Shown in pieces: positions 1 to 21,983 of a stretch of DNA of 23,800 nt. Source of the stretch: a virus; IMG/VR virus record IMGVR_UViG_3300009149_000282, positions 1 through 23,800 of that record; one strand, 5' to 3'. Position 1 is the first letter of the stretch. Each line of letters opens with the position of its first letter. Below the pieces are notes generated by a model. That model did not search any database, was not told the DNA's origin, and saw only the letters and a program-made list of their open reading frames with translations. Position numbers and translations under genes: made by a program.

Positions 1-628
1 TATCTTCACCAGATGTTAATAATCTAAATTTTACTGTTTTTTTACGCATTGGTAATTCAACAGTAAAATACCCATTTTCATCAGGTTCTTCATCAACCCT
101 TTTATATTTTAGTTTAGTTAAATCAACAGTTGTTTTAAACATTGCGTTAGTTCTTGGGTCTGGTACTTGTACACCATATTCTGAACCGTAACTTGAACTA
201 CGTAAAAATAATATAATTGCACTTCTATCGCCAGTTAATAAATCGTTAGGATTTACACCAGCAGTTTTAATTTTTCTTTTTAATAATACATCAATAGCTG
301 TACCATTATCAATTAAGGAAGGTGTTGTTAAAATATCTTCATCTTTTGATGTCATATATTCAACAGTAACTTCTTTAAGTCCATTTTTATAAAATTTACC
401 TTTTGATGGTAATTTAATAATTTCATATGAAGTCATTAAATCAGGGTCAGTCTCTTTACTCATAGTTTTTTCAAACTCTTGAGGATTAAAACTATCCATT
501 TTTGGATTTGCATCAGGAGTTAAATTAATCGGTTTAGTTTCATTAGTACCGTGCATTTCTTTATATTTCTTTAAAACATCACCTATTGGTTCTCTTGTTT
601 TAACAGGTTCTTGATTCATATTTTCCAT
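1..628 (-). CDS. T4 gp26-like baseplate hub assembly protein (partial, C-terminus off the left edge)
   Basis: The reverse strand is open from an ATG at 628 to the window edge, giving 209 residues without a stop. Residues 1-60 are polar and probably flexible. From about residue 66 the sequence has the pattern I associate with the T4 baseplate gp26-type family: SYEIIKLPSKGKFY (67-80), then VEYMTSKDEDIL (89-100), a Gly-Thr-Ala-Ile-Asp stretch with LLKR (109-118), LLTGDR (130-135) and LRSSSYG (142-148). In T4 this protein helps assemble the central baseplate hub and is not abundant in the virion. The next ATG, at 619, is in frame and could also serve. A late-type box lies 24 bases upstream of the chosen start. 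The family call rests on recalled motifs, not on a search. The gene is transcribed divergently from phoH. Confidence 0.72.
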   Translation of the reverse strand, partial: MENMNQEPVKTREPIGDVLKKYKEMHGTNETKPINLTPDANPKMDSFNPQEFEKTMSKETDPDLMTSYEIIKLPSKGKFYKNGLKEVTVEYMTSKDEDILTTPSLIDNGTAIDVLLKRKIKTAGVNPNDLLTGDRSAIILFLRSSSYGSEYGVQVPDPRTNAMFKTTVDLTKLKYKRVDEEPDENGYFTVELPMRKKTVKFRLLTSGED

Positions 629-731: not shown

Positions 732-1553
732 ATGAGTAGAAATAGATATAAAGAAGAAAAAGATTTTGAAGAATTAACTTCTGTAGATAATACTGGGCGA
801 ATACTTGAAATTAAAGCAAATATAAAAAAACTCATAAAACGTGACACTAAAATTTTAGCAAAAAATGATAGTCAAAAAAAATTAATACAATCAATAAAAA
901 ATAATGAAATTACGATTTGTGCAGGACCAGCAGGTACTGGAAAGACTTACGTAGCATTAGCACTCGCATTAAGTATATTACGGAAAGAAAATAATAGGTT
1001 TAAAACAATTTTTCTGGTTAAATCAGTTACAACATTAAAAAATGAGGAAGTTGGATTTATTAAAGGTGATTTAAAAGATAAAATTGACCCAGCAATGTGG
1101 AGTTTCTTTATAAATATAGAGAAAATGATATATAAAACAACATTATCATTATTAATTGCTGAAGATATTATTAGACCAGTTCCTTTAGCATATATTAGAG
1201 GCGCAAGTCTGGATGATTGTATTATAATTGCAGATGAAATGCAAAATGTTACCCTTGATAATTCAAGAACATTACTCACAAGAATTGGAAGTAATTCTAA
1301 ATTAATTGTTCTTGGAGATACAAATCAGGTCGATATGAAAAATAAAAAAGAAAGCTCGTTACATAAAATGTTAGAAATATTTAAGGATGTTGAAAAAATT
1401 GGTATTATTGAAATGAGTGAAGAAGATACAAACATCAGAAATCCATTAATTTCAATTATTGAAAATAAATATAGAGAACACATTAATATTGAAAACGAAA
1501 AAAAATTACAATATAATAGAAAAAGTATAAATAAACATCAATTAAATGATTGA
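732..1553 (+). CDS. phoH: PhoH-family P-loop ATPase
   Basis: This is a 273-residue PhoH-like NTPase. Visible motifs are Walker A GPAGTGKT (65-72), Walker B IIIADEMQN (164-172) and the GDTNQ sensor motif (195-199), followed by the characteristic SSLHKM segment (208-213). The N-terminal 45 residues are charged and not part of the ATPase core. PhoH proteins are RecA/helicase-superfamily ATPases common in phages. Their precise phage role is unsettled; RNA helicase or RNA metabolism activity has been proposed for some relatives. The gene is first in a long plus-strand run and overlaps the next gene by 8 bases (the ATG at 1546 precedes the TGA at 1551-1553). No late-type box faces it, and I could not find a convincing promoter in the 103-base divergent gap, so it may be transcribed early from an unrecognised site. 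TGA as stop is unusual here, since nearly all other genes end in TAA. Confidence 0.97.
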   Translation: MSRNRYKEEKDFEELTSVDNTGRILEIKANIKKLIKRDTKILAKNDSQKKLIQSIKNNEITICAGPAGTGKTYVALALALSILRKENNRFKTIFLVKSVTTLKNEEVGFIKGDLKDKIDPAMWSFFINIEKMIYKTTLSLLIAEDIIRPVPLAYIRGASLDDCIIIADEMQNVTLDNSRTLLTRIGSNSKLIVLGDTNQVDMKNKKESSLHKMLEIFKDVEKIGIIEMSEEDTNIRNPLISIIENKYREHINIENEKKLQYNRKSINKHQLND

Positions 1554-1833
1554 AGAAAATAAAATATTAGTAATATATGTTGGAGTACAAGGAATCCGAA
1601 GTGAAGATATTGAAACATATACTCAAAAAGTGGTAATAAAAATTATGCCACAAATATTTCAAGGTGAAATAATTGTAATTCCTGTTCAATCACTAAATAC
1701 AAAGATCGAATGTATCAATCCAAAATATATTACAGATGAAGAGTTAATAATTAATCATACTAAATTAATGGTAAGATTAGAAAAAGAACTTGAACATCAA
1801 TTAAATGAATTAAAAAAACAAAATTATGAGTAA
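1546..1833 (+). CDS. Hypothetical protein (95 aa)
   Basis: The product is not recognised. It begins with a hydrophobic beta-like segment (ILVIYVGVQGI, 7-17), has a second one (GEIIVIPVQSL, 40-50), and ends in a charged predicted helix (about 70-95, rich in Glu, Lys and Leu). No signal peptide or membrane segment is evident. It overlaps the end of phoH, so the two are probably translationally coupled. The last 49 bases of the gene region (1786-1834) match 2267-2315 at 42 of 49 positions without gaps. There the downstream copy contains a TGA stop, while this copy has CAA, so the protein runs four residues further (Gln-Asn-Tyr-Glu). The C-terminus therefore looks like a product of a local duplication or conversion. 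Confidence 0.75.
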   Translation: MIEENKILVIYVGVQGIRSEDIETYTQKVVIKIMPQIFQGEIIVIPVQSLNTKIECINPKYITDEELIINHTKLMVRLEKELEHQLNELKKQNYE

Positions 1834-1858: not shown

Positions 1859-2302
1859 ATGAAAGAATTAAATTTAGATTATGAAAAATATGGTAATTGT
1901 TCTAAAAAAGACACAACCTATGATGAAAAAGTAAAAATATTTGAGGATAATGTGAAGATTATGATGATGAGTTCCACATTTATTGGTCAGATTAGTAAAT
2001 TAAATTTAGGTGACATGTATGAATTACTTAAAAATGATAATATTTTAATTGCACACTTACCAATATTTAGATATAATGATAGGGTTATGTGTTTTAGCAA
2101 AGGTGAAATTAATGATGATTATGAACATGGAAAATATAAAATATTAACCACAAATCAAATCAAAAAATATTTAAATGAAAATTATTTAATTTTCATTTAT
2201 ACTGTTTTTGATACTGAATATGAAGAAAGTGAGGGTTTAAAATATAGAACAATTATATTAAAAGAAGAACTCGAAAATCAATTAGAACAATTAAAAAAAT
2301 GA
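1859..2302 (+). CDS. Hypothetical protein (147 aa)
   Basis: The product is not recognised. It is a soluble, mixed alpha/beta-looking protein with a Met-rich patch (IMMMSST, 34-40) and a hydrophobic strand near NYLIFIYTVFD (112-122). It ends in a charged helix (EELENQLEQLKK, residues 136-147) that is nearly the same as the C-terminal helix of the preceding gene product. It starts 25 bases after the previous stop and is followed by only four bases before the next ATG. The stop is TGA, one of only two in the window. I found no catalytic motif. A role in early host takeover or regulation would fit the location near phoH, but that is only a guess from position. Confidence 0.75.
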   Translation: MKELNLDYEKYGNCSKKDTTYDEKVKIFEDNVKIMMMSSTFIGQISKLNLGDMYELLKNDNILIAHLPIFRYNDRVMCFSKGEINDDYEHGKYKILTTNQIKKYLNENYLIFIYTVFDTEYEESEGLKYRTIILKEELENQLEQLKK

Positions 2303-2315
2303 AATTATGAGTAAA
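2267..2315 (+). repeat. Duplicated gene junction, copy 2
   Basis: This is the partner of 1786-1834. Here the TGA stop at 2300-2302 and the ATGAGTAAA start at 2307 are both functional, joining the 147-residue unknown to the HAD-like gene. Confidence 0.75.
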
Positions 2316-3047
2316 TTAAAAATAGGTATCGATGTTAACGAAGTATTAAGAGCCAGATGGTTACAATTTGATAGGTTTTATGCACAAGAGTTTGATGAAA
2401 ATGAATTACCAGAAGAACAATTACCATACGTGTATGATTTTTTTGAAAAATATGATTGGAAGGATATTGAGGAAGAAGTGAAAGAAATGCGTGAACCAGA
2501 AGATACACCAGATACAATTAATCCTATTGATTATCAAGTTGATGAAAAAGGGGAAGCACCTGCTGATTTTTTAATATTTAAAAAAACTGAGAAGGTTAAA
2601 CTTACTGCAAGAGAAGTATATAATAGATTTATGTATGAAGATTATTTATTTGAAATTCATGGAGCAGCACCAAAAATGTATGGTCAAATGGATTTAGACG
2701 TTAATAATTTTTTACTAAAATATGATGATACTGTAGATTTTACTGTAATGTCTGTCGAAAACCGTTTTAGTATACCACCAACGCTTTTCTTCTTAAGTAA
2801 AATCTCAAGCAGATTTAGAAATTATAAGTTTGTTGATAAAGCTGTTGATATGTGGAAAGAAGTTGATGTTCTTATTACAACAGACCCAGAAATATTAAAA
2901 CTTGGTGCACCTTGGGGTAAGAAAATAATAAAATTAAAACGACCATATAATGAAAATATAAAAGGTGGTTCATTAGAGGTATTACAAATTCATGATTTAA
3001 CAAATAATAAAGAATTTGAAAAAATAATTAAATATAAAAAACAGTAA
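2307..3047 (+). CDS. Putative HAD-like protein (246 aa)
   Basis: The N-terminus KIGIDVNEVL (5-14) looks like motif I of the HAD superfamily, with Asp9 as possible nucleophile. The usual second Asp is Asn11, which would be expected to impair classical phosphatase chemistry. Later segments could match the other HAD elements: FTVMSVEN with a Ser (about 145-152) for motif II, and VDVLITTDPEIL (about 187-198), which sits where such enzymes have an acidic motif. Between them is an acidic, Glu/Pro-rich region (about 30-85) with no obvious fold. The gene lies directly upstream of two glycosyltransferases with two bases between genes, so it may act on the same pathway (a sugar or nucleotide phosphate), or it may simply be co-transcribed. 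The assignment is tentative. An inactive, binding-only HAD fold is a real alternative. Confidence 0.4.
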   Translation: MSKLKIGIDVNEVLRARWLQFDRFYAQEFDENELPEEQLPYVYDFFEKYDWKDIEEEVKEMREPEDTPDTINPIDYQVDEKGEAPADFLIFKKTEKVKLTAREVYNRFMYEDYLFEIHGAAPKMYGQMDLDVNNFLLKYDDTVDFTVMSVENRFSIPPTLFFLSKISSRFRNYKFVDKAVDMWKEVDVLITTDPEILKLGAPWGKKIIKLKRPYNENIKGGSLEVLQIHDLTNNKEFEKIIKYKKQ

Positions 3048-3049
3048 AA

Positions 3050-4222
3050 ATGAGTGAAGAATTAGAAAAAACAGCACAAGAAGCTGAAATGGAAAAAATA
3101 GAGAAAATTAAAGAATCTCTAAATAAAATATCAAATAAAGAATCAAAATTCTTATTTGTTGTACCAGAATCACAAAGTCCTGCTGCAAGTGTTTATGAAA
3201 TTTATTTTCATGCAACTGTTGTAAAAAATATGGGATATAATATTATGATAATGGTTGAAAAGGGTGATTATATACCACCTACTTGGGTTGAAAAAGAACT
3301 TACTGATCATAAACATGTCTCAATGTCTGACCCAAAACTAATGGTCGGTCCTGAAGACGTAATGATCATTCCAGAGGTTTATACTAATGTAATGGAACAA
3401 ACAAAAAACTTACCTTGTAAGAGAATTGGTTTATTACAATCTATTGATTATATGATGAATTCACTGATACCGGGAACGGATTGGGCATCATTCAATATTT
3501 ATGATATTATCACTACTTCTGAAACACTTAAGGAGTTAGTTGAATTATATTATGGTAAAGATAAGTATAATATAATGGTATATGATATTGGAATTCCCGA
3601 ATATTTTGAAAAATCAAAAATTCCACAAAAACCAATAATTTCAGTAATTGGTAGAAATGCAAATGAAATTTCAAAATTTGTTAAGTTGTTTTATGCTAAA
3701 TTCCCTCAATATAATTGGGTAACATTTGACCCAATGGTAACTAAAAGCAAACCACCACAACCAATGAGACGAATTGATTTTGCTAAAAGATTACAAGGTA
3801 ATTTTGCTGCATTATGGATTGATAGAATAGCGTCTTTTGGAACATTTCCATTAGAGTGTATGAAATCAGGAGTTATTCCAATTTCATTAAAACCAGATAT
3901 TATTCCTGATTACATGATCGAAAGAGATAGTGATGGTAAACCAGCCAAAATAATTGAGGGTGGTGGTATTTGGAGTGATAGTTATTATGATCTCCCATTA
4001 TTAGTTGGTGAAGTTTTAATTAAGTTTTTAGATGATGGTATTAAAAATGAGTTATATGTAAAAATGGATAGTATCGTTGCTAAATATACTCAGGTTGCTG
4101 CTGAAGAAAAATTAGAAAAAATATATGGTGATGTTATTAAAGAAAGAACATTAATATTTGAAGCAGCACTAGCAACAAAAGTTGATGTTGCACCAACACA
4201 AGAAGAAGAAATAAAAAAATAA
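3050..4222 (+). CDS. GT-B-type glycosyltransferase
   Basis: This is a 390-residue protein. After a charged helical leader (1-32) comes a Rossmann-like strand FLFVVPE (34-40). The second half has ISVIGRNANE (197-206), typical of the start of the GT-B C-terminal domain, then FGTFPLECMKSGVIPISL (263-280). The latter matches the donor-binding segment of GT4-type retaining enzymes, in which a Glu (here Glu269) contacts the nucleotide-sugar. The C-terminus (375-390) is low-complexity and acidic. It probably transfers a sugar from a nucleotide-sugar to a phage-chosen acceptor. It is followed 23 bases later by a GT-A enzyme, so the two may build one glycan. In T4-like phages glycosyltransferases modify DNA or virion proteins. 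No base hydroxymethylase is seen here, which makes virion glycosylation or modification of the host surface as likely as DNA modification. Confidence 0.72.
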   Translation: MSEELEKTAQEAEMEKIEKIKESLNKISNKESKFLFVVPESQSPAASVYEIYFHATVVKNMGYNIMIMVEKGDYIPPTWVEKELTDHKHVSMSDPKLMVGPEDVMIIPEVYTNVMEQTKNLPCKRIGLLQSIDYMMNSLIPGTDWASFNIYDIITTSETLKELVELYYGKDKYNIMVYDIGIPEYFEKSKIPQKPIISVIGRNANEISKFVKLFYAKFPQYNWVTFDPMVTKSKPPQPMRRIDFAKRLQGNFAALWIDRIASFGTFPLECMKSGVIPISLKPDIIPDYMIERDSDGKPAKIIEGGGIWSDSYYDLPLLVGEVLIKFLDDGIKNELYVKMDSIVAKYTQVAAEEKLEKIYGDVIKERTLIFEAALATKVDVAPTQEEEIKK

Positions 4223-4245
4223 TATTAAAACTAAATAAATAAAAA

Positions 4246-5079
4246 ATGAATATATCAATAATAATTCCTATTCACGAATATTCTGAAGTAGTTTCAGAAT
4301 ATTTAAATAAGGCAATCGAATCGATTACCAAACAAAATGAAACTAAAGAACTTCCACAAATACTTTTAGTTTATCCAGCAGATGAACATACAAATGTTTC
4401 AGAATTTAGAGTTTCAATGTTTGAAAAATATAATGGAATTTTAAATCAAGAGAATTTTCTTTTAATTAAAAATGATGGTATAACTGATTATCAAACACAA
4501 GTAAATCTAGGGGTTAAGTCAGTAAATACTGATTATTTCTCAGTACTTGAATTTGATGATCAATATTCAAATAATTACATAAAAAATGCAACATCATACA
4601 TTGAAGCATATCCTGAAATTGATGTGTTCTTAACTATGATGATTGAAGTAAATGATAAAAATGAGGGTATTAAATTAACAAATGAAACTGTTTGGGCACA
4701 ACAATTTGTTGGCGAAAACGGCGAAATGGGTTATTTAAATTCCAATGCCCTAAAACAATATACTGATTTTAAATTATCTGGTGCAATTATTAAAAAATCT
4801 GATTTTGAAAATCTGGGTGGGTATAAGTCAAACATTAAATTAACATTTATGTATGAATATTTACTTAGAGCATTAAATAATGCTTCAAAAATATATAGTA
4901 TTCCAAAAATTGGATATAAACATTTAGCGACCAGAGAAGGTAGTTTATTTGATACATATTTAAAAACAATGCCAGTTGATGAAAGAAAATTTTGGTTTGA
5001 AACAGCGACGAAAGAATCTAATTTCATTAACGATAGAATAATTGATTTATCAGGACTACAAAAAGTGGTTACAGGATAA
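4246..5079 (+). CDS. GT-A family 2 glycosyltransferase
   Basis: The product has 277 residues. It opens with the family-2 signature strand MNISIIIPIHEYSE (1-14). The metal and nucleotide-binding acidic motif lies in SVLEFDDQYS (99-108), with Asp104 and Asp105 in the DxD position. The later LGGYKSN (about 190-196) followed by an aromatic, Glu-containing helix (FMYEYLLRAL) matches the usual acceptor-side and catalytic-base region of GT2 enzymes. No membrane helices are visible, so it is a soluble transferase acting in the infected cell's cytoplasm. It sits between the GT-B enzyme and the sigma factor gene. The acceptor cannot be read from the sequence. Confidence 0.88.
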   Translation: MNISIIIPIHEYSEVVSEYLNKAIESITKQNETKELPQILLVYPADEHTNVSEFRVSMFEKYNGILNQENFLLIKNDGITDYQTQVNLGVKSVNTDYFSVLEFDDQYSNNYIKNATSYIEAYPEIDVFLTMMIEVNDKNEGIKLTNETVWAQQFVGENGEMGYLNSNALKQYTDFKLSGAIIKKSDFENLGGYKSNIKLTFMYEYLLRALNNASKIYSIPKIGYKHLATREGSLFDTYLKTMPVDERKFWFETATKESNFINDRIIDLSGLQKVVTG

Positions 5080-5090
5080 CTATAAATTAT

Positions 5091-5837
5091 ATGAGTACTA
5101 TTGAAAGTAAACCATATTTTGCTGAAAAAGAAGAACAAGCAGTTATAGATTATATTAATTCTGATTCGCTGGAAGAAAAAAATAGAATCTATAATAATAT
5201 TCTTATCGAACCTTTTCGAAAAATGATTGAGTCAATATTAAGACGATATCCAATACATATTGGAAATTATGATATGGAAGAGGTTGAATCAAACGCACTT
5301 ACGCATTTGATTGAGCATATGGTTAAATTTAATCCAAATAAAATAACTAAATCTGGAAATAAAACTAAAGCATTTAGCTATTGTCAGACAATCATTAGAA
5401 ATTATTATAAAGACCATAGTAAAAAAAGTTATAATGAAAAGAAAACTAATTTATGTTTTGATGATTATGTTGATGAAATTAATGGGAATGTTGAAAATAG
5501 TTATGAGATTGAAACTGAACAGCATCAACTTGAAATATTAATTAATGGTGTTGTTGAAAAAATTGAAGATAAAATCGATAATGACCCAACAATAAAGAAA
5601 AATGAGATTATTGTTGGGGATGCTATTGTAAATATTCTGAAAAATTGGGAAGTTTTATTTATGGAAGACACACCAGAAGGAACATATAATAAAAGAATAA
5701 CAAATAAATTTGCTAAAAATAAAATTTTATTATACTTAAAAGAACAAACAGGATTATCAACAAAGGAAATAAGAGTCGGTATTAAACCATTTAAAGAAAT
5801 CTATTTTGTTGAAAAGATTGGTTATATTGACGATTAA
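5091..5837 (+). CDS. T4 gp55-like late sigma factor
   Basis: Residues about 28-120 of this 248-residue protein look like a divergent sigma-70 region 2. They include a helix with EPFRKMIESILRRYP (40-54), an acidic MEEVESNALTHLIEHMVKFNP segment (about 62-82), then KAFSYCQTIIRNYYKDHSKK (93-112). That last segment matches the conserved aromatic/basic run of T4 gp55 that binds core polymerase and the -10 DNA. No region 4 is evident, as in gp55, which directs polymerase to a lone -10-like box with help from the sliding clamp. T4 gp55 has 185 residues; this one has a longer C-terminal part (120-248) with a Lys-rich segment and no motif I recognise. The eight AGTATTTATA-type boxes before structural genes are its likely targets. 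Neither a gp45 clamp nor a gp33 co-activator is in the window. It starts 11 bases after the glycosyltransferase stop. Confidence 0.78.
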   Translation: MSTIESKPYFAEKEEQAVIDYINSDSLEEKNRIYNNILIEPFRKMIESILRRYPIHIGNYDMEEVESNALTHLIEHMVKFNPNKITKSGNKTKAFSYCQTIIRNYYKDHSKKSYNEKKTNLCFDDYVDEINGNVENSYEIETEQHQLEILINGVVEKIEDKIDNDPTIKKNEIIVGDAIVNILKNWEVLFMEDTPEGTYNKRITNKFAKNKILLYLKEQTGLSTKEIRVGIKPFKEIYFVEKIGYIDD

Positions 5838-9617: not shown

Positions 9618-10403
9618 ATGAATATTCAAATTCCAGATAAATTATTTACAACATTTAACGATATTACGTTTCATGATGAACCACATAAGTATTATGTGGG
9701 TGATAAAGAATTAATTAGTGTTACTACGTTAATTCATAGATATCAAGAAATATTTGATGAAGATTATTGGTCAAAATATAAGAGCAATGAACTTGGTCTT
9801 ACACAAAAAGAAATATTACGTGCGTGGAATTTTATAAATAAAAAGGGAACAATTAAAGGTTCAGCAATTCATGATTATGCTGAGAACCGTTTTTTAAATA
9901 AAAAATTTCCATATCCAAAACAAACGATTCTTGATGAATTTGGTTTTGACCCTGTTTTAGATGAATATTTAATAACAAAAAAACATGTTGATAATTTCCA
10001 TAAGGATGTATATGGTAAATTAATTCCAATAAGAACTGAAATGGTTGTTTATGATAGAGAATCATTAATCGCTGGTATGCTCGATATATTGTTTTATAAT
10101 GTTAAAGCTAAAGAGTTTCAAATTTGGGATTATAAAACAAACAAAAAATTTGATAAACAAATGAGTTCAAGACATTTTAGTGATGAATTATTTATGTTAG
10201 AAGATTGTGATTTAGAAATTTATTCATTACAATTATCAATGTATAAATTAATTATTGAAAAAAATACTGGAATTAAACTTGGAAAATCATATGTTGTTTG
10301 GTTTAGTCACAATAATGATAATTATGAAGTTATTGAAACTAAAGATAGATCATATTATGTAAATACGATTATTAATAAAAGAATCGCTGAATTAGCTGCA
10401 TAA
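9618..10403 (+). CDS. PD-(D/E)XK (RecB/Cas4-like) nuclease
   Basis: The 261-residue protein shows the full nuclease set in order. It has KGSAIHDYAE with His85 (80-89), Glu141 in IRTEMVVYD, GMLDILF with Asp156 (153-159), IWDYKTNK with Asp171 and Lys173 (169-176), and QLSMYK with Gln205 and Tyr209 (205-210). This is the arrangement of RecB-family and Cas4-like exonucleases, which cut DNA with bound Mg or Mn. No four-cysteine iron-sulfur cluster is visible. Likely roles are recombination, replication or host-DNA degradation. It sits among structural genes but has a host-type promoter and no late box, which suggests early or middle expression. The downstream 68-residue gene begins one base after its stop. 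Confidence 0.85.
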   Translation: MNIQIPDKLFTTFNDITFHDEPHKYYVGDKELISVTTLIHRYQEIFDEDYWSKYKSNELGLTQKEILRAWNFINKKGTIKGSAIHDYAENRFLNKKFPYPKQTILDEFGFDPVLDEYLITKKHVDNFHKDVYGKLIPIRTEMVVYDRESLIAGMLDILFYNVKAKEFQIWDYKTNKKFDKQMSSRHFSDELFMLEDCDLEIYSLQLSMYKLIIEKNTGIKLGKSYVVWFSHNNDNYEVIETKDRSYYVNTIINKRIAELAA

Positions 10404-20727: not shown

Positions 20728-20931
20728 ATGAAAGGTACAACTGGAAACAGATTAAGAAGAGAAAATGCAAAGAAAATGCTTGAAGCACAACTTAAACGTG
20801 GTACAAAACCAGAAAAGGTTGATGGAAAAACAACACGTAATATGATTCCATTAACTGATGCTAATAGGAAGCGTATTGAACGTGAAATTGAAAATATAAA
20901 TAATAAGAAAAGTAAAACTACTTTTGTATAA
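20728..20931 (+). CDS. Small basic hypothetical protein (67 aa)
   Basis: The product is not recognised. It is rich in Lys, Arg and Asn and lacks long hydrophobic stretches. The N-terminal half (MKGTTGNRLRRENAKKMLEAQLKRG) and the C-terminal helix (ANRKRIEREIENINNKK) are strongly basic, suggesting binding to nucleic acid or to an acidic partner. It is placed between dUTPase and ThyA, and its stop overlaps the thyA start (TAATG at 20929-20933), so it is co-expressed with both. Confidence 0.7.
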   Translation: MKGTTGNRLRRENAKKMLEAQLKRGTKPEKVDGKTTRNMIPLTDANRKRIEREIENINNKKSKTTFV

Positions 20932-21983
20932 TGAAACAATATTTAGATTTATTAGAAAACATCCTTGATAATGGTGTTGAAAAAGAAAGTGGTAGAGCAA
21001 ATATGCCGAACACTAGAGGTATATCTCACGGTGTAATCCAAATGGATTTACAAGATGGGTTTCCATTACTTACAACTAAGAAAATGTATTGGAAAGGTAT
21101 TGTACACGAACTCCTATGGTTTCTTAGGGGAGATACTAATATTGCATATCTTGTGAATAATAATGTGAATATCTGGAATGGAGACGCTTATAGATGGTAT
21201 TTGAAATATAATGAAAATAATAGTCATGGGACTCCACCGTTAACGATGGAACAATTTATTAATGAGATAAAAATGGGTGGACACGTAAATCCCCATTTTG
21301 TTAATACTGATTATTATCTTGGTGATTTAGGTAAAGTTTATGGTTACCAATGGCGTAATCAAAACGGTGTTGATCAAATAAAAGAGGTTTTAGATGGGTT
21401 AAAATCAAATCCTTATAGCCGTTATCATATTATTGATGGTTGGAATAAGGCAGATTTTAAAGATATGGCACTTCCACCATGTCATTTACTTTATCAGTTT
21501 ATTGTAAGACCATTAGATACTATTGAAAGAACAGAATTAGCTTGGAAAATTGGGTTAGAATCTGAATACAGGGAGAATTTACCGAAAATGGTAGAAGAGT
21601 GGGATATTTGGTTTGATGAAAGAAATGTACCAAAGTTTTATCTTGATTTAAATATGTACCAACGTAGTTGTGATACAATGCTCGGAGTTCCTTTCAACAT
21701 AGCTTCAATGTCATTATTATTAATGATTTTTGCAAAAGCATCTAATATGATAGCTGGTGTTTCAACTTGGATTGATGGTGATACTCATTTATATATGAAT
21801 CATATTCCTGCCGTTAATGAACAACTTGAAAGAGAACCATATGATTTACCTCAAATGGTAATTAATAAAGAACTAAATAATCTTGAAGATATATTGGGAT
21901 TAACTATCAATGATTTTGAATTACAGAATTACGAATGTCACTCAACAATCAAAGCAGAATTATTTACTGGATTAAAAAAATAA
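20931..21983 (+). CDS. thyA: Thymidylate synthase
   Basis: This 350-residue ThyA converts dUMP and methylene-tetrahydrofolate to dTMP. The catalytic cysteine is Cys184 in LPPCH (181-185). Other signatures are DGFPLLTTKK (42-51), HELLWFLRGDTNIAYL (59-74), YQRSCD (243-248), GVPFNIAS (252-259) and GDTHLY (283-288). Asn256 is the residue that marks specificity for dUMP; dCMP hydroxymethylases have Asp there, so this is not one. It is longer than the 264-residue E. coli enzyme because of inserts at about 92-128 and about 193-234, as in a long type I associate with Bacteroidota and their phages. The Arg pair that binds dUMP phosphate across the dimer reads Arg164-Tyr165, so the second Arg is replaced. 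It works with the dUTPase upstream. The start is fixed by the TAATG overlap. Confidence 0.98.
   Translation: MKQYLDLLENILDNGVEKESGRANMPNTRGISHGVIQMDLQDGFPLLTTKKMYWKGIVHELLWFLRGDTNIAYLVNNNVNIWNGDAYRWYLKYNENNSHGTPPLTMEQFINEIKMGGHVNPHFVNTDYYLGDLGKVYGYQWRNQNGVDQIKEVLDGLKSNPYSRYHIIDGWNKADFKDMALPPCHLLYQFIVRPLDTIERTELAWKIGLESEYRENLPKMVEEWDIWFDERNVPKFYLDLNMYQRSCDTMLGVPFNIASMSLLLMIFAKASNMIAGVSTWIDGDTHLYMNHIPAVNEQLEREPYDLPQMVINKELNNLEDILGLTINDFELQNYECHSTIKAELFTGLKK

Follow-up and report, generated by a model that had tools for sequence, protein, structure and literature searches.

Variable glycosyltransferase islands within the structural gene region have been described for T4-like pelagimyophages and cyanomyophages (HRC; the lipopolysaccharide (LPS) clusters of P-SSM2); the pelagimyophage islands carry rfaE and one P-SSM2 LPS cluster lies near phoH. 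Moraphages, T4-related jumbo phages whose hosts are predicted to be mostly Bacteroidota, possess four core groups of putative glycosyltransferases, a core sigma factor and PhoH, and variable islands are noted for them (PMC12619734, which also cites work on mycobacteriophage virion glycosylation). The capsid N-glycans of chlorovirus PBCV-1 are virus-encoded, made outside cell organelles and composed of a conserved core with virus-specific sugars. Further literature drawn on comprised PMC9723584, PMC3037559, PMC7824862, PMC7029224, PMC9614988, PMC13282480 and PMC7826918. From these sources, glycan islands are already known in cyanomyophages and pelagimyophages, and core glycosyltransferases in moraphages. 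Here we analyzed a stretch of 23,800 nucleotides (positions 1-23,800 of the IMG/VR virus record IMGVR_UViG_3300009149_000282, hereafter the window), in which genes for a HAD-like protein, a GT-B glycosyltransferase and a GT2-type (GT-A) glycosyltransferase, hereafter the trio, form one block. The trio is a core of its phage lineage and evolves like the neighbouring conserved genes. Since the trio is a fixture of the whole lineage and, in relatives, a rapidly changing island of sugar genes is found close to it, these phages probably make glycans of their own, which they may place on their own particles.

The three open reading frames (ORFs) of the block were confirmed from the sequence as an earlier note on this DNA had given them, with gaps of 2 bases between the HAD-like and GT-B genes and 23 bases between GT-B and GT-A; a further 11 bases separate GT-A from the next ORF, a conserved gene with weak sigma-factor likeness. 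In 50 mononucleotide shuffles of the window the longest stop-free stretch was 147 codons. That note had called the block a glycosylation cassette, a name that is supported because both transferase folds hold and many of the active-site residues are kept. Its interpretation as a whole is partly supported.

Searches of viral contigs with the trio proteins returned relatives for the HAD-like protein (79), GT-A (119, of which the best 80 were kept) and GT-B (1). The single GT-B relative is due to the pattern search used, since tblastn detected GT-B in 142/142 loci, a count that includes the window itself and repeats and is biased because the loci were reached through trio genes. A fairer test was provided by loci reached through a gene at 9618-10403 of the window, labelled PD-(D/E)XK-like nuclease from reading its sequence, at ≥50% identity and with ≥7.5 kb of upstream sequence. 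All 19 such loci hold HAD, GT-B, GT-A and the sigma-like gene, with several duplicate contigs among the 19 and many also met through the trio searches. At more distant nuclease loci (<50% identity; 13 found), two had enough upstream sequence, and both were without the trio and the sigma-like gene.

The spacing of the genes is similarly regular, with medians of 1 base between HAD and GT-B (122 loci), 24 between GT-B and GT-A (134) and 23 between GT-A and the sigma-like gene (134); the HAD/GT-B gap exceeds 200 bases in three loci. Median amino acid (aa) distances were 0.27 for GT-B, 0.31 for GT-A and 0.36 for HAD, compared with 0.24-0.52 for seven neighbouring conserved genes and 0.255 for the sigma-like gene. 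GT-B and GT-A distances correlated at 0.82, the highest value of 15 gene pairs, and every pair exceeded all 200 permutations. A phage collection searched with each trio protein gave no match. Profiles of the trio produced no hit at E 1 in the stretches examined of three sheath-related phage records, and the GT-B profile, run against the whole records without a positive control, produced none either.

The GT-B protein had no Pfam match better than E 0.095. The earlier assignment to this fold was borne out by other means: a profile of 69 sequences (the window's and dereplicated homologues; mean column identity 71%) matched AmGGT, a glucosyltransferase of Actinobacillus minor with a PDB structure (8xsg, E 4.7e-4), and an AlphaFold2 (AF2) model of the protein (pLDDT 87) aligned to 8xsg over 318 residues with a Z score of 27.6, a root-mean-square deviation of 3.3 and 15% identity. 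The next enzymes among the structural matches scored about Z 22, and T4 AGT Z 18.7. The model has an N-terminal helix additional to the AmGGT fold. In AmGGT, R170, R203 and E231 contact the uridine, and K171 and E223 are among the four residues whose alanine mutants are reported to reduce activity most (PMC12159676). By profile alignment the three uridine contacts correspond to R202, R241 and E269 of the phage protein, which are invariant in 69/69 sequences, as is K209. In contrast, AmGGT N100, K171 and E223 are replaced by Q130, N203 and A/S261, the equivalence of N100 being uncertain. The phage enzyme is AmGGT/GT4-like; since the uridine contacts are kept and the sugar contacts changed, its donor is likely to be a uridine diphosphate (UDP) sugar, not necessarily UDP-glucose. 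Compared with the Actinobacillus glucosyltransferases AmGGT and Agt, the likeness lies in the GT-B fold and the retained uridine contacts, whereas the acceptor of the phage enzyme is a prediction from the surrounding genes.

The GT-A assignment also held, as the window's protein scored 26.7 bits against PF00535 (Glycos_transf_2; cut-off 23.3, E 5.9e-6); the trio GT2 copies of some relatives fall below this cut-off. Its family profile matched a solved glycosyltransferase in the PDB (5tze, E 0.0014). In the alignment of 77 sequences, built in the same way as for GT-B (mean column identity 66%), D104, D105, E204, H226 and R230 are invariant in 77/77; going by the motifs of GT2 enzymes, we take D104/D105 to be the metal-binding aspartate motif and E204 the catalytic acid.

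According to its AF2 model (pLDDT 82.5; five models, 67.1-82.5), the HAD-like protein has a 5'(3')-deoxyribonucleotidase-type fold, with VIA Z scores of 13.5 to the bacterial structure 3bwv and 12.9 to human mitochondrial 5'(3')-deoxyribonucleotidase (1z4i), and aligned ranges that cover nearly the whole protein. The best PDB hit with Foldseek had an E value of just 1.2e-3, the alignment used as a profile found no match in the PDB, and comparison of the model with viral protein structures returned phage 5'-nucleotidases along with phage proteins that are uncharacterised (best E 5e-5). While the HAD label of the earlier note stands by modelled fold, a phosphatase is doubtful: across 63 aligned sequences (window and dereplicated homologues, mean column identity 68%), the catalytic DxD pair reads D/D in 5, D/N in 47 (including the window's D9 and N11), V/D in 9 and E/D in 2. 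Unlike in 1z4i and 3bwv, the pair is therefore complete in 5/63 only, whereas E12 and R15, close by in the sequence, are invariant in 63/63. Because the pair is incomplete in 58/63, the protein is probably a pseudo-phosphatase or a remodelled HAD. Trehalose-, sucrose- and mannosylglycerate-type pathways pair a glycosyltransferase with a phosphatase; such a partner role for the HAD-like protein was considered unlikely, position 9 being other than aspartate in 11/63 and the pair incomplete as above.

Sixteen long relatives, selected by the length of their contigs and with records that may be incomplete, were sampled for other glycan genes. GT2 profiles match non-trio genes in 15 of them, and 42 of the 46 non-trio GT2 matches lie ≤32 kb from the trio, where 14.3 would be expected. 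For the nine records longer than 190 kb the figures are 25/29 observed and 7.2 expected; none of 20,000 uniform placements reached this clustering, which is seen in 8/9 records, although matches inside one island are not independent of each other. The matches within 32 kb are 11-27 kb from the trio's own GT2 match. The arrangement in relatives runs from three genes labelled B793, B150 and B240 through the variable island to a gp53-like baseplate wedge gene, genes for proteins of ~1,090 and ~830 aa, and a baseplate-hub-like gene; divergent from the latter follow (PhoH), a small conserved ORF named u95, HAD, GT-B, GT-A and the sigma-like gene. The gene flanking the island is baseplate-wedge-like in most records (the copy of relative G001 matches phrog_7145, E 7.1e-5).

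An island was present in 12/12 records with both borders in view. Its near border was the gp53-like gene in 10 records; for G009 and G012, where that gene was not found, the one after it served instead. The far border was B240 in 11 and B150 in G006, where B240 was not found. G011, G013, G014 and G016 were left out of the island count, one or both borders lying outside the stretches examined; G011 and G013 look like near-copies, because the GT2 distances of the former are the same as, and the border proteins of the latter identical to, those of G001. The islands span 5.7-23.9 kb and carry 6-25 genes of ≥140 aa each (171 in total), on a single strand per record, with the near edge about 8-10 kb from the HAD gene, beyond the baseplate genes (G006 left out). 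The 171 genes form 96 families (blastp threshold 1e-8), of which 64 are private to one genome and one occurs in all 12; this last encodes a 216-aa protein close to the far border (L243:12664-13311 in G001).

All 171 island proteins were scanned with Pfam, and the tallies, which partly overlap, are lower bounds: Glycos_transf_2 in at least 33, Glyco_tranf_2_5 in at least 12, NAD epimerase in at least 10, UDP-GlcNAc 2-epimerase in at least 8, FkbM in at least 4, DegT and PfkB in at least 3 each, and PIG-L and formyltransferase in at least 1 each. Also represented are further glycosyltransferase families, nucleotide-sugar epimerases/dehydratases and other methyltransferases, DegT being an aminotransferase and PIG-L a deacetylase; the PfkB kinase and cytidylyltransferase-like proteins may form an RfaE-like pair. 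Overall, glycosyltransferases, nucleotide-sugar enzymes and methyltransferases are abundant in the islands. By a simple hydropathy rule, 168/171 have no predicted membrane segment. The window's own island, if there is one, would lie outside it, because the left end of the window is the start of the baseplate-hub-like gene. The earlier note took the two transferase folds to suggest a glycan of two or more sugars; this is plausible, and the island in relatives strengthens it.

Altogether, these observations suggest that the trio is the invariant core of a phage glycan pathway which the island extends, with a virion protein as the most likely acceptor, a reading to which we give about an even chance of being right. 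In this scheme the two transferases, GT-B probably drawing on a UDP-sugar, would attach the initial or common sugars to an acceptor that is soluble in the cytoplasm of the host. The HAD-like protein would most likely be a non-catalytic partner that holds the transferases, the acceptor or a sugar phosphate. Island enzymes in relatives would then supply variable sugars and capping groups, so that each phage gets a different sugar coat on its virion proteins, those of the tail or baseplate foremost. The data fit a glycan that is assembled stepwise in the cytoplasm, its core being shared and its outer part variable. A virion acceptor fits best because the island sits among tail genes, the export families tested gave no match over cut-off, and the searches revealed no basis for glycosylating DNA. 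The more specific proposal, in which a two-tier glycan (core sugars from the trio, outer sugars from the island) coats the tail or baseplate and a retired deoxyribonucleotidase fold serves as obligate partner, is tentative and, taken as a whole, more probably wrong than right.

Several points weigh against this reading. K171 and E223, two activity-critical residues of AmGGT, are not kept in the GT-B family, nor is N100, the third sugar contact; due to these replacements the donor sugar, and even activity, may differ. The acceptor and the joint action of trio and island are deduced, and the activities and donor of the enzymes are predictions from sequences and models, whereas gene content, conservation, gene order and the make-up of the islands were observed directly. 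One relative, G006, has no GT2 genome match apart from its trio, and the islands also contain families other than sugar genes (HNH, LAGLIDADG, KilA-N, MT-A70, ketoacyl-synthase). The trio and the island may serve different acceptors, since the trio stands apart and on the other strand. A missing phage flippase is also compatible with use of the host's. Additionally, the authors who described glycosyltransferase islands in other T4-like phages interpret them as changing the host O-chain.

This last interpretation is the main rival, namely that the transferases and island alter a host surface polysaccharide (O-chain or capsule) while the cell is infected, excluding competing phages, by way of the host's lipid carrier and flippase. 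The nucleotide-sugar enzymes and numerous glycosyltransferases do look like LPS islands, hypervariability suits surface antigens, and the authors of pelagimyophage and jumbo-phage reports favour it for comparable islands. However, the flippase family Polysacc_synt (PF01943) was matched in 0/16 long relatives (13/14 controls positive), and the initiating transferase family Bac_transf (PF02397) in 0/16 over cut-off, with one weak match containing internal stops (9/14 controls over cut-off); the export search covered these two families. Island membrane proteins are near nil, and, the trio being invariant, the hosts of this diverse lineage would all have to share an acceptor. The absence of the two families leans towards a soluble cytoplasmic acceptor. 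These points lose force if host enzymes are used, so none is decisive, and we regard a host-surface role as fairly unlikely. Inactivity of either or both transferases, or a role for them other than transfer, is consistent with the replaced sugar-contact residues and the degenerate neighbouring HAD, yet there is no variation at the uridine contacts, at K209 or at the acidic residues of GT2, which makes this hardly probable. Under a further alternative, the trio works independently of the island, its target being a small molecule or host protein needed at every infection; it might be a nucleotide-sugar sink or act on the transcription machinery possibly encoded beside it, and its nearness to the island would be incidental. 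The trio is indeed contiguous with the sigma-like gene and not with the island, and its distances track those of core genes; non-trio GT2 matches, however, cluster near the trio far above uniform placement, and no precedent for that particular function is known to us. We consider it very unlikely.

Glycosylation of phage DNA by GT-B and GT-A as a defence against restriction, in the manner of T4 AGT and BGT, is quite improbable. Many T4-like phages glycosylate their DNA, the T4 agt gene lies near gene 55, and T4 AGT, itself a phage enzyme of GT-B fold, appears among the structural matches of the phage protein; AmGGT, however, matches far better (Z 27.6 versus 18.7). A thymidylate-synthase-family locus occurs once in 12/16 long relatives and not at all in 4/16, never as two separate loci, and a second gene of this family is what a hydroxymethylase would be expected to show as. 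The earlier note saw no hydroxymethylase in the window, and none of this kind was found in the sampled relatives either. TET/JBP was matched over cut-off in 0/16, with one sub-cut-off match containing an internal stop in G001, and AGT was matched in 0/16, neither search having a positive control. The suggestion of that note that the acceptor may be something other than phage DNA is favoured, with the TET/JBP and AGT parts of the evidence uncontrolled and the records perhaps incomplete. Its argument from the asparagine of ThyA is weaker than claimed, because dUMP hydroxymethylases keep this residue too. T4 AGT and the present enzyme therefore differ in that no hydroxymethylase route was found here, the structure is less similar, and the AGT profile gave no match (uncontrolled).

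Some further genes were recorded. ThyA (350 aa, window 20931-21983) exceeds the length of its Pfam family model (266 positions), and the thymidylate-synthase match is split into two adjoining pieces in G001, G002, G008, G011 and G013, the frames being equally long in all of these but G013. Mom-family matches occur in 9/16 long relatives (L189-L207; e.g., G001 183355-184876 and 190423-190803), over cut-off in 8/16, several of them within 500-640 aa frames among the G001 tail genes; they could represent DNA modification or part of mobile genes. Adenylosuccinate-synthetase-like genes (376-389 aa; L182-L188) were found in 7/16 long relatives and were not called PurZ (the Z-DNA type), because they keep the GDEGKG motif; G001 also carries a dATP/dGTP diphosphohydrolase-like gene. 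An inventory of G001 (349 kb) covered 206 of 236 ORFs of 140-900 aa, the 30 left out including the cassette and much of the island; among the families listed were OrfB/Cas12f1-like TNB transposase-type genes, NADAR, R2K ATP-grasp, RNA ligases and a phage-integrase-family gene (L160-L164, L172-L177).

The features at the left end of the window are listed in Table 1. In the window and some relatives the same-strand block opens with the PhoH-like gene. The truncated gene at the window's edge shows 66% identity to residues 4-210 of S307 of G001 (tblastn), a protein similar to the phrog_150 baseplate hub (E 5.4e-7). The u95 ORF matched no Pfam family over cut-off and PHROG only weakly (best E 0.057), and in 116/118 loci having both genes it lies -35 to +13 bases from HAD, mostly at -8 (an 8-base overlap). 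The ORF that separates the two in the window was found by tblastn in 1/142 loci, that one being the window itself.

Table 1. Features at the left end of the window, with strand and basis of assignment
Feature	Coordinates	Strand	Basis or remark
Start of baseplate-hub-like gene (S307 homologue), truncated by window end	2..613	-	tblastn
PhoH-like ATPase	732..1553	+	PF02562 E 2.7e-54; syntenic in relatives
u95, small conserved 95-aa ORF	1546..1833	+	no known family
147-aa ORF separating u95 from HAD-like gene	1859..2302	+	window only
HAD-like protein, 246 aa	2307..3047	+	ATG to TAA
GT-B glycosyltransferase, 390 aa	3050..4222	+	ATG to TAA
GT2-type (GT-A) glycosyltransferase, 277 aa	4246..5079	+	ATG to TAA
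Conserved downstream gene (sigma-like; 'late sigma factor' of the earlier note)	5091..5837	+	weak sigma matches

The trio does adjoin a conserved gene downstream, as had been claimed, but the name of late sigma factor given to it is weakly supported. The window's copy matches Sigma70_r2 at E 0.03, and 9/20 homologues match this family (best E 0.018), 6/20 match phrog_1740 'sigma factor' (best 0.0017) and 17/20 match ZW10_C2. Its alignment used as a profile found no match in the PDB, and a better-scoring Sigma70_r2 gene (E 3.8e-11) lies at another place in G001.

The window also contains T4-like tail genes, and its sheath protein resembles those of 2,597 phage records, every one at <60% identity. 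One relative's contig sits in a Bacteroidota metagenome-assembled genome bin. The lineage is one of T4-like phages with jumbo genomes, and its hosts are probably Bacteroidota. It falls outside the bS21-phage group by the test applied (PF01165 in 0/16, 6/14 controls positive). With moraphages, going by their description, it shares T4-related jumbo genomes, predicted Bacteroidota hosts, core putative glycosyltransferases, PhoH and variable islands, and moraphages may be the same or a sister lineage; DnaJ, frequent in them, is matched in 6/16 relatives here, all below cut-off. In contrast to the pelagimyophages and cyanomyophages, the present lineage universally carries a fixed core of three genes close to its island, and no such core was found described in the portions of those reports consulted. 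PBCV-1 differs as a eukaryotic virus whose acceptor is known, whereas here the acceptor is predicted from genes. We saw no published account of the trio or of a trio-plus-island system, which does not itself show that none exists; nor did we see a description of a universal trio that includes a degenerate HAD protein and keeps a constant position relative to the island.

Phage glycosyltransferases are usually taken as accessory, with DNA or the host surface as their target. In this lineage two of them are no less fixed than the core genes around them, and near them, across the baseplate genes, lies a glycan island. The group concerned is widespread and uncultivated, and offers a clean test case for the roles of core phage glycosyltransferases. 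If its virions are glycosylated, adsorption, recognition and competition among phages would hinge on a strain-specific sugar code made by the phage itself, and the system would, if this is true, be the phage parallel to the glycan on chlorovirus capsids.

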